64,000 nucleotides of DNA from Haliotis asinina (lineage: Eukaryota; Mollusca; Gastropoda; Lepetellida; Haliotidae), in NCBI RefSeq assembly GCF_037392515.1, contig NC_090282.1, positions 57,994,843 through 58,058,842 on the forward strand, given 5' to 3'. Within the stretch, counting starts at the first letter, position 1, and each line of letters opens with the position of its first letter. Shown here in pieces: positions 4,551 through 64,000 of the stretch. Made by a program: the position numbers and the translations under genes. The notes beneath the pieces were generated by a model, which worked only from the letters and a program-made list of their open reading frames with translations, ran no database searches and had not been told where the DNA came from.

Positions 4551-4565
4551 CAGGTTGTGAGGATG
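4551..4565 (+). promoter_or_regulatory. Possible 5' UTR splice acceptor just before the gene A start codon
   Basis: CAG at 4551-4553 follows a T/G-rich run and lies 9 bp before the ATG at 4563. Genes B and C also have a good acceptor upstream of their ATG (19997-19999 and 41425-41427). A shared non-coding first exon is plausible; no donor can be assigned. Confidence 0.35.
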
Positions 4566-7500
4566 TTGGGGTCTGTCGCAGTCCTCGTAGTGGTCGTCGC
4601 TGTCGTCGCAGGTGAGGCAGACCTTAGGACCTGTCACAGTAACATGTCAAATTTTCCGTGGCATGCATGCATTTACATGATTTATTAGTAAATGCGACCT
4701 AACACACAGATCAAGAAGTTGTTGGCAGTGAATTCATCTCTATTGATCATACAATGCCGAGAGACTGTAATGGACAACACCCGTGAAGGTCCGGGGTAGA
4801 AAAGGCCTTAAAATCAGCAACTCATGCTTGCCACAAAAGGCGACTATGCTTGTCGTCAGAGGCGATTAACGGGATCGGGTGGTCAGGCTCGCTGACGTGG
4901 TTGACACATGTCATTGGTTCCCAATTGCGCAGATCGATGCTCATGCAGTCGATTACTGGATGGTCTGGTCCAGACTCGATTATTTACAGACCCACTCACT
5001 CACATGGTTTTTAACAGATCTTTGTAGTTTATTGCATATTGCAAATTATTGTAGTTCTTTGCATATTCTTGATTTAAAACGTTTATTCGGTCTTGATCGC
5101 TACAACCAGACATGGCCATTGATGCTGGTTATCTGTCCACCAGGTGGCGCATCTCTTGGGACACTGTTTGATCAGTACTACCAGTGGCGGCTGAAGGAGT
5201 CCCCGGAGATGGCAACCTACCTCAACGTACACGACTACGACGATGAGTTAGATAAATTTGGATTTGGGGAAATGGACTTTGTGAAGGTTAGTCATTAAAT
5301 CACGAAGTCTTTCTTCCGTCACCAAACACTCTGGCCTAAATCTATGACCTACAACCACCCCCTCTATCACCATCACCGCCACTACCATCCCCTCCACCAA
5401 TACAATTATCGTCACATTTGTTACTGCTACCACTACCGAGGTTACTTCCAAAGACATCACAACCACAACCAAGCCACAACAAGAAGAACTACCAGCTCTG
5501 TTACAGCAAGTACCTCTAGCATAGCCGCCACAAGAGACACTTATCCGATAGCTACCGAGAGCACTTCTCCAACCATTACTGTATTCCAGTAACATCTCTA
5601 CTTCCTCTTCCGTAACCACTCCCAAATACACTGATACTACATCTACCATAGCCATTACCACAGATTCTTCTACTAGTACTAAAATAATTACAACCAAAGA
5701 CACTTCCAAATACACTAGGTGCGGTGAGGTAACCGAGTGGTTAAAGTGTTTGCTCGTCACGCCGAAGACCAGGGTTCAGTTCAGTTCCCCACATGGGTAA
5801 GCCCATTTCTGGTGATATTGCTGGAATATCGCTAAAAGCGGCGTAAAACTATATTCACTCACACCTTGAGTCACACCTGCTCCTTTTGACACTACCAAAC
5901 ACACTTCTGCTACCACTATAATAACCACTTGAAAAGACAGGGCTACTTTCAGTCACTACCATAGACTCTGTTACTATCACTACCAATGACACTACCTGAG
6001 CCACTACTAAATCACTAACTACCATCACCATATCAACTACCAAAGATATTTCTACTACTGGTAGGGTGGGGTAGTGGTTTAAGAGGTTTGGTCAGCCAGG
6101 GTTCAATTCCATATATGGGTACACCGAGATCATAAATACACATGGTAATCTTGTCATAGTGCCCATTCTGAAATTTACAAAAGTTTGATTTACTCCACAA
6201 ACGAAGTGAAGTGAAGAAATCAGAAAGTTTTAACTGACCGGTATTTGGTGCTAGCATGAACTCAAAAGCGGTCAACCACTCTTGATACATAACAAGTCCT
6301 TGTGTCATTCGACCTCCATCTCTCGATTCCACAGGACGTCCAGGACGTCGGTTGCTTGTACTTGTAATGGCATGTCATGGGGAGGGAGAGAGAGAGACAG
6401 AGAGAGAGAGAGAGAGAGAGAGAGAGAGAGAGAGAGAGAGAGAGAGAGAGAGAGAGAGAGAGAGAGAGAGAGAGAGAGAGAGAGAGAGAGAGAGAGAGAG
6501 AGAGAGAGAGAGAGAGATAGAGAGAGAGAGAGAGAGAGGGAGAGAGACAGAGGTGTGTATGTGGGGGGTGTCTGGTGTGGGTGATGACACTGCTCCTACT
6601 GCCATCAAAGTCACTACTTCAACCACACTGGCAATCAATGATCATTACAAGTTCCACATCCATCAGCCACAACTTGTTCCATCGCTATCAACACGCTGAA
6701 TCACTATCACCCTACACCTGCTACCACAAATCATATCACCACAACAGGAGCTTACATTGTTAGTTATGCCATACCCCACAGCGCCCACCGCTACATGACT
6801 CATACATCTGCTACAACATCTGCTACAACATCTGCATCTGCGTGTGCTGTACCTGCCACCGAAGTCTTCTACCAATATAACCAGTCAGTAGATCAACTCG
6901 GAGTACAAAGACACACCATCATATGTTAAGTACAGAACCCGGTTCTTGTGAAGAACCGGGGTAGAATAGATCATCAGCAACCCATGCTTGATGTAAGAGG
7001 CGACTAACGGGATCGGGTGGTCAGGTTCGCTGACTTGGTTGACACATGTCATCGGTTCCCAATTGCGCAGATCAATGGTCATGGATTGTCTGGTCCAGAC
7101 TCGATTATTTACAGACCGCCGCCATATAGCTGGAATATTGCTGAGTGCGGCGTAAAACTAAATTCACTCACACTGAAACTGTAGCGTGAGGGAATGCCTG
7201 AACGCCTTAACCGTTTGGTTGGCCTACCGCTTCCAAGTCGTGACGAAGACTGAAATGGTGTAATACCGGAAAAACATTCACATAAAGAATGTGGTTAATC
7301 TTAAGCGGCACACCATTTTTTCTTTAAACATAAGCGTGGTTAATTAATATCGAGCGATTAGTCGCCAAAAAGTCGTCAGGTTACACTGTCGCCAGAGCAC
7401 TGCAGTGACGTCACGTGAGAAAGGATTTTCAGTTAGTTGTATATAAAATTTGTGACAAGCTTGTCAATTTGCTGATTTTCAACGTAAATAAACATGTGCC

Positions 7501-63500: not shown

Positions 63501-64000
63501 TAATGATTTGGTATCAGACGAGCGAAAGCGAGTTTGATACTAAATCTTTAACTAGTTTAATGAAAATGGTATTTCACGGAAGCGTGTTTAGTATTCTGTT
63601 TATTACTCGCCAACATAAATTGACAGAAACTGCTGCGAAATTGTCTACAGTCTGAGGACTCTCAGCTTTCAAGTCAAGCAAGGTCTAGTAAAATCGCGAT
63701 ATTAGCGTTGTGACGTCACCACAACTTTGAACCATTTTCACGAGATGCGTCAAGCGGTACTGCACTAGTGTAATAGTGAAGTGAAAATATTACACTGCAG
63801 TATCTTCAACGGGCGAGTAATAAAATGCATTATCAGAACGACTGTCAGTCTGAGAGATTTTCCAGCTTGTTGTGTCTGTACAGACAGACAGTCTGGTGAT
63901 GTGATGTTCCTTTCCAAGTTCAGAAAGACTGTAACTCTAATGGATCTTCCTCTCCATCGAGTTCTTTATCAGTTTTCTTCTTCAGCATTTGTTTGTGTAC
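60390..64000 (+). CDS. Gene D: start of a fourth DUF885-family gene, truncated by the window edge
   Basis: Two coding exons are visible: 60390-60501 (112 bp, phase 1 end) and 61901-62052 (152 bp, phase 0 end), exactly the sizes and phases of gene C exons 1 and 2. The encoded start, MSTSTFKVSAKCLFACFISS and onward, differs from gene C at three of 37 residues. Exon 2 encodes GGSAGTGLRSLEAEFYRWRE and ends in SLETRK. The N-terminal hydrophobic segment again suggests a signal peptide or anchor. Exon 3 is expected to begin with an AKVD-like sequence beyond 64000; intron 2 is also long in gene C (4 kb). Whether the rest is intact cannot be told from this window. Confidence 0.85.
61695..61798 (-). 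mobile_element. Dispersed repeat family 2, fragment
   Basis: GTGTATCAACCACGTCAGCA, ACTACCCGACCCCGTTAGTC and GTCCGGGGTTTTCACGTGTC match the minus orientation of the family. It lies in intron 1 of gene D, 100 bp before exon 2. Confidence 0.7.
62170..63430. repeat. 36-bp minisatellite, about 1.25 kb
   Basis: The core is TGTGTGTCCTGTGGACAGAA followed by GGAAGGTCTGTTAGAT, with degenerate copies on the left and two exact copies at about 63353-63424. As 36 is divisible by three, open frames appear on both strands (for example TTGHTVVQTFLL repeated). It fills most of the visible intron 2 of gene D. Confidence 0.9.
63455..63596. mobile_element. Foldback (MITE-like) element with about 60-bp arms
   Basis: GGATACTAAACCACCTTCCG at the left pairs with CGGAAGCGTGTTTAGTATTC at the right, and GATTTGGTATCA pairs with TGATACTAAATC around GACGAGCGAAAGCGAG. 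A second inverted pair, TTTATTACTCGCC near 63600 and GGGCGAGTAATAAA at 63811, suggests the full element reaches about 63830. Confidence 0.75.

Follow-up and report, generated by a model that had tools for sequence, protein, structure and literature searches.

The 64,000-nucleotide window analysed here (G000:C3:57994843-58058842) lies in the 1.14 Gb genome of Haliotis asinina (159 contigs) and carries a tandem array of genes for DUF885 (PF05960) proteins. We show here that a known domain family is present in an unusual host, that the array is real, and that it belongs to a larger family. Three complete genes, A, B and C, stand head to tail on the plus strand, each with 17 exons and an open spliced coding sequence (CDS). 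All 16 introns in each gene are of the GT-AG type, and their phases are identical across the three copies. The original prediction had described three complete intron-rich genes and a partial fourth one, with equal lengths and phases of exons 3-16, and this description holds, as the 14 exon lengths (131, 136, 69, 113, 82, 168, 87, 95, 108, 61, 108, 65, 72 and 170 nt) recur in A, B and C together with all 16 intron phases. These lengths served as search terms, the exons being sought as segments of the given lengths between AG and GT or GC. As a control, the summed cross-copy score of the length search was 4538 in one frame versus 1237 and 689 in the other two. A free length search directly recovered 13 of the 14 exons in order and misplaced the 82-nt exon, which a search of the bounded interval located between its neighbours in all three copies. 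The fourth gene, D, is partial only because the window ends there; its other 15 exons lie beyond, ending at window coordinate 81368, 17.4 kb past the window end. The stretches around its exons 1 and 2 repeat their gene C counterparts at 94% and 89% identity.

The assignment to DUF885, previously made from the letters of the window, is borne out by profile search. PF05960 matches the proteins of A (E 2.8e-132, residues 37-579), B (E 7.3e-133) and C (E 2.5e-134) with 443-450 bits against a curated cut-off of 32.4 and over profile positions 1-531 of 532. No Pfam family besides PF05960 matched A, B or C at E 0.001, and in NCBIfam the sole match of the gene B protein was CotS, at an E value of 0.024 and far under the cut-off. 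The solved structures nearest by sequence are 3o0y, 3iuk and 3u24, bacterial DUF885 members that have the PF05960 domain in common with the animal proteins. The match of gene B to 3o0y (E 3.3e-66) covers residues 203-586 and with them the HE..PGHH and EGWALY stretches, and a profile search of the PDB with 42 bacterial sequences returned these three DUF885 entries, all further matches having E >= 0.25. The motifs HExxPGHH and EGWxLYxE are retained in 10 of 10 family proteins checked and in 80 of 80 bacterial relatives, and the motif residues are invariant across the 42 bacterial sequences. Unlike their bacterial counterparts, the animal proteins carry leaders and added tails, their genes contain introns, and 12 residues are inserted between the two motifs.

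The array is embedded in a larger set of loci. A whole-genome search with PF05960 gave 33 exon-level matches, and when protein H or a bacterial protein was the query, the same loci came up, along with further exons from them. The marker exon 16 was found at 15 places plus one fragment, these locus counts being lower bounds. The earlier statement of at least four genes undercounts the genome. Beyond position 64,000, a fifth member on the same contig, E, lies on the minus strand, opposite to A-D, and further members were found on contigs C4, C17 and C2. The C2 locus, P (G000:C2:75.846-75.885 Mb), is divergent and additional to the 15. Its matches extend over ~38 kb, and two of them are weak (E 0.006). 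By eye, the locus shows a fusion of exons 8-9 and a split exon 16, with the other visible boundaries in agreement; its HExxPGHH exon lies outside what was read. In copy N, exon 16 contains a stop and few of the exons were found; copy G has short exons 2 and 13, and its exon 6 was not found. Thus, 13 copies show no damage in the parts read; of these, K, L, M and O were read incompletely. Downstream on C3, three minus-strand segments resemble last exons (window coordinates ~112427, 122754 and 132057), one of them being gene E's own; these segments and the exon 16 fragment are remnants of partial duplications.

In the nine genes with a full set of exons 3-16 (A-F and H-J), 123 of 126 lengths of these exons equal those of the window genes. 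The exceptions all concern exon 6 (104 nt in E, 110 nt in F and J), with the phase unchanged. The search for the exons of D-J allowed plus or minus eight to ten codons, so that phase was imposed and equal length was not; copy G, without exon 6 and with a shorter exon 13, stands outside this count. Since exon lengths and phases are shared among copies, the introns are older than the duplications, and the array is the product of tandem duplication starting from a gene in which they were already present. The family being mainly bacterial, bacterial contamination or an assembly artefact might be suspected. The sixteen GT-AG introns that each of the three complete genes contains, the location of the array on an 89 Mb contig with more loci on contigs of 83 and 102 Mb, and the dispersed repeats in the introns rule this out, and we regard its probability as negligible.

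Protein identity is 65-67% between A and B, 45% between A and C and 47% between B and C. Ratios of nonsynonymous to synonymous substitution (dN/dS, Nei-Gojobori) were calculated for nine pairs, six of which give a value: 0.13 for A-B, 0.18 for C-D, 0.16 for I-J, 0.19 for H-I, 0.08 for F-K and 0.18 for A-C. The synonymous component exceeds 1.3 in all of these except C-D (0.40), the youngest among the compared pairs, and is therefore uncertain in every ratio-giving pair but this one. In B-E, C-F and A-H synonymous sites are saturated and yield no ratio. Judged by these values, the compared genes are under purifying selection. Open frames and low dN/dS also rule out that A-D are pseudogenes.

Table. 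Coordinates of the DUF885 genes and motif exons in the window, and of the family loci across the genome.
Feature	Position	Strand	Description
Gene A	4563..18015	+	640-residue DUF885 protein, N-terminal hydrophobic leader; ATG at 4563; open spliced CDS
Gene A exons	4563-4611, 5144-5286, 8692-8822, 10606-10741, 11350-11418, 12225-12337, 12444-12525, 13241-13408, 13561-13647, 14165-14259, 15015-15122, 15450-15510, 15820-15927, 16037-16101, 16317-16388, 16845-17014, 17750-18015	+	
Gene B	20060..34728	+	656 residues; open spliced CDS
Gene B exons	20060-20108, 20841-20989, 21859-21989, 22286-22421, 23766-23834, 24106-24218, 24320-24401, 24877-25044, 25167-25253, 25688-25782, 27296-27403, 30948-31008, 31713-31820, 32197-32261, 32728-32799, 33277-33446, 34421-34728	+	
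Gene C	41480..57875	+	641 residues; open spliced CDS
Gene C exons	41480-41591, 42511-42662, 46627-46757, 47469-47604, 48375-48443, 48824-48936, 49778-49859, 50230-50397, 51167-51253, 51647-51741, 52556-52663, 53795-53855, 53965-54072, 54564-54628, 55503-55574, 57195-57364, 57679-57875	+	
Gene D	60390..64000 in the window	+	Exon 1 60390-60501, exon 2 61901-62052; 624 residues in all
Exon 12 with HExxPGHH	A 15450-15510; B 30948-31008; C 53795-53855	+	HEAVPGHH in A, HEGVPGHH in B, HETVPGHH in C
Exons 13-14 with intron	A 15820-16101; B 31713-32261; C 53965-54628	+	Family insertion, then EGWALYAE
Family loci by exon 16	C3; C4:34.79-34.88 Mb; C17; C4:81.9; C4:26.0; C4:25.96; C4:30.4		A-E; F-J; K; L; M; N; O (in this order)

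Several repeats lie within the window. Intron 11 of gene B holds a 454-bp direct repeat (27997-28450 and 30441-30894), the copies of which are 99.8% identical and ~2.4 kb apart; the sequence separating them has no long open frame. The repeat is either a recent duplication or a non-autonomous element. A short dispersed repeat occurs at 7797-7877, 14619-14699, 26905-26985 and 27676-27756, its copies starting like GTGAGTTTAGTTTTACGCC and being spread in the manner of short interspersed elements. Intron 2 of gene D contains a tandem repeat array with a unit of ~36 bp (62160-63419). An Rfam search of the window gave no match at gathering scores.

The most distinctive feature of the proteins is the 12-residue insertion between the motifs. 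All 13 family proteins with both motifs read contain it, their spacing from HExxPGHH to EGW being 45 residues (46 in M as modelled); the spacing in G and P was not measurable. Prokaryotic proteins have 31-35 residues at this place in 110 of 112 entries, a set in which at least two loci were fetched twice and for which eight of 40 later loci were dropped as likely duplicates. Of the two exceptions, one has 43 residues of unrelated sequence and the other no EGW motif. Because it is placed between the putative metal-site helices, the insertion may shape substrate access.

Leaders and tails were judged by hydropathy alone, as 13-residue means. The N-terminal leaders of A-D reach 2.6-3.3 (3.26 in gene A); the first exons of E-J are not settled. 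C-terminal values are 1.9-3.1 in F, G, H, I, J, K and M and <=1.05 in A-E, a comparison that leaves out L, N and O, whose last exons were unread. Internal stretches of the proteins reach 1.9 as well, and the weakest tail (I, 1.88) therefore proves little. Taken together, hydropathy suggests that the family has secreted and glycosylphosphatidylinositol (GPI)-anchored branches. The tails of the C3 genes lack a hydrophobic segment, and the C4 and C17 genes with a last exon read have a hydrophobic stretch at the end that resembles a GPI-anchor signal. Given this difference between the branches, some products are probably soluble and others surface-bound.

What might these proteins do? The structure was predicted for a bacterial DUF885 relative, and the helical fold of this model aligns with peptidases of families M3, M32 and M2 over ~320-415 residues at an identity of ~7-13%. 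These families, to which oligoendopeptidase F, the M32 carboxypeptidases and ACE belong, are zinc peptidases defined by the motif HExxH. The DUF885 family differs from them in lacking HExxH and having HE-x-x-P-G-H-H (HE-x4-HH) instead. The tubulin carboxypeptidases MATCAP / TMCP act on tubulin and have a motif one residue shorter than the HE-x4-H found here. Since the bacterial homologue folds like M3/M32/M2 enzymes, we read the family as secreted or surface-bound, probably zinc-dependent metallopeptidases. The best explanation overall, which we consider likely, is an expanded animal DUF885 family of extracellular enzymes of ~640 residues. The hydrophobic leader would route the protein into the secretory pathway, and the largely helical DUF885 domain would fold like the groove-shaped zinc peptidases of M3, M32 and M2, as seen on the bacterial homologue. 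The invariance of the motifs suggests that the HExxPGHH helix pair and the EGWxLYxE helix hold a metal, EGWALYAE being the presumed third ligand or active-site helix, and that the bound metal would hydrolyse peptides entering the groove. The likeliest use would be breakdown or trimming of small peptides outside cells, possibly in gut or gland secretions. Two points weigh against an enzymatic role, namely that the metal motif is non-canonical and that we know of no activity of any DUF885 protein; literature searches, including searches on 3O0Y, 3IUK and 3U24, found nothing on DUF885 function. Both would be in line with catalytically dead relatives kept for binding or structure. However, the motif residues are kept in all ten family proteins checked and invariant in the 42 bacterial sequences, and the genes compared are under purifying selection; we consider loss of catalysis improbable.

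The extracellular peptidase reading is compatible with different origins of the family. The domain is widespread in bacteria, occurring in 112 of 282 genomes of one phylum draw. The best 80 of 594 bacterial stretches come from many phyla and are 30-39% identical; the best full-length prokaryotic identity is 38% among 282 genomes (short stretches being higher), 40% among 396 and 39% among 398, where in the latter two draws only matches with E <1e-105 were reported, in 9 genomes and 1 genome. In a tree without outgroup, which could not tell origin and was the only one to use copy G, the 14 family proteins form one clade (support 100), the stem of which measures 0.58. A quick tree of 96 rows, leaving out 21 of the 80 bacteria and 2 of the 14 family rows, was rooted with distant DUF885 paralogues and places the family inside bacterial groups (support 96). 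A careful tree of 61 rows, including 7 of the 14 family rows, does so with the same outgroup (99/96) and links the family weakly (82/85) to two Bryobacterales proteins. The outgroup branches are long, the quick tree carries a warning of long branches meeting, and the trees hold no eukaryote outside the family. In an approximately unbiased (AU) test on the careful tree, placing all 50 close bacteria on one side was not rejected (log-likelihood difference 11.4, p 0.193). Thus, nesting in the rooted trees favours a bacterial origin, but the AU result leaves it unproven. The earlier suggestion of an old bacterial transfer followed by intron gain stands to this extent.

Transfer from bacteria into this animal lineage or an older eukaryote, followed by intron gain and duplication, has in our view about an even chance of being correct. 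Besides the bacterial distribution and the nested position, a Dictyostelium DUF885 gene appears in a table under horizontal gene transfer in one report (PMC3188802). Against transfer stand the AU test, the long outgroup branches in trees without other eukaryotes, and the lack of a donor, the closest full-length matches being only 38-40% identical. Somewhat less probable, and still to be taken seriously, is vertical descent of the family, within animals or within eukaryotes, from a DUF885 gene of early eukaryotes, followed by loss in most animals. It would fit the deep paralogy (identities of 44-48%, synonymous sites saturated or nearly so), the introns common to paralogues, the long stem of the animal clade and the occurrence of DUF885 in Dictyostelium and in a fungus (PMC8478523); the nested position in both rooted trees speaks against it.

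That such arrays are little described agrees with our literature search on DUF885 and PF05960, which covered published papers and not predicted-protein databases and found no animal DUF885 gene array. To our knowledge, mollusc entries in those databases, which we would expect to exist, are unstudied. The mollusc mention retrieved is a single transcript, PVC-83 of the snail Raphitoma purpurea, a putative venom component of 606 residues that is annotated as DUF885 and also as 'tyrosine carboxypeptidase' (PMC11359391). By its description this gastropod protein is similar in length to the window proteins, and the passages on it give no gene structure or family analysis.

The family described here is of interest to comparative genomics, since it offers a well-defined set of genes for testing a domain whose structures are solved but for which no function is known to us. 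Its fixed exon structure and diagnostic insertion make it traceable through animals, and transfer or loss could thus be dated. It is conceivable, though we consider it rather unlikely in this full form, that the lineage long ago took up a secreted peptidase from bacteria, to which it added introns and the 12-residue loop between the two metal-binding helices, and radiated it into soluble and membrane-tethered branches for extracellular peptide processing in gastropod guts or venom glands. If these proteins are active, mollusc digestion or secretion would gain a family of secreted peptidases that is little recognised.
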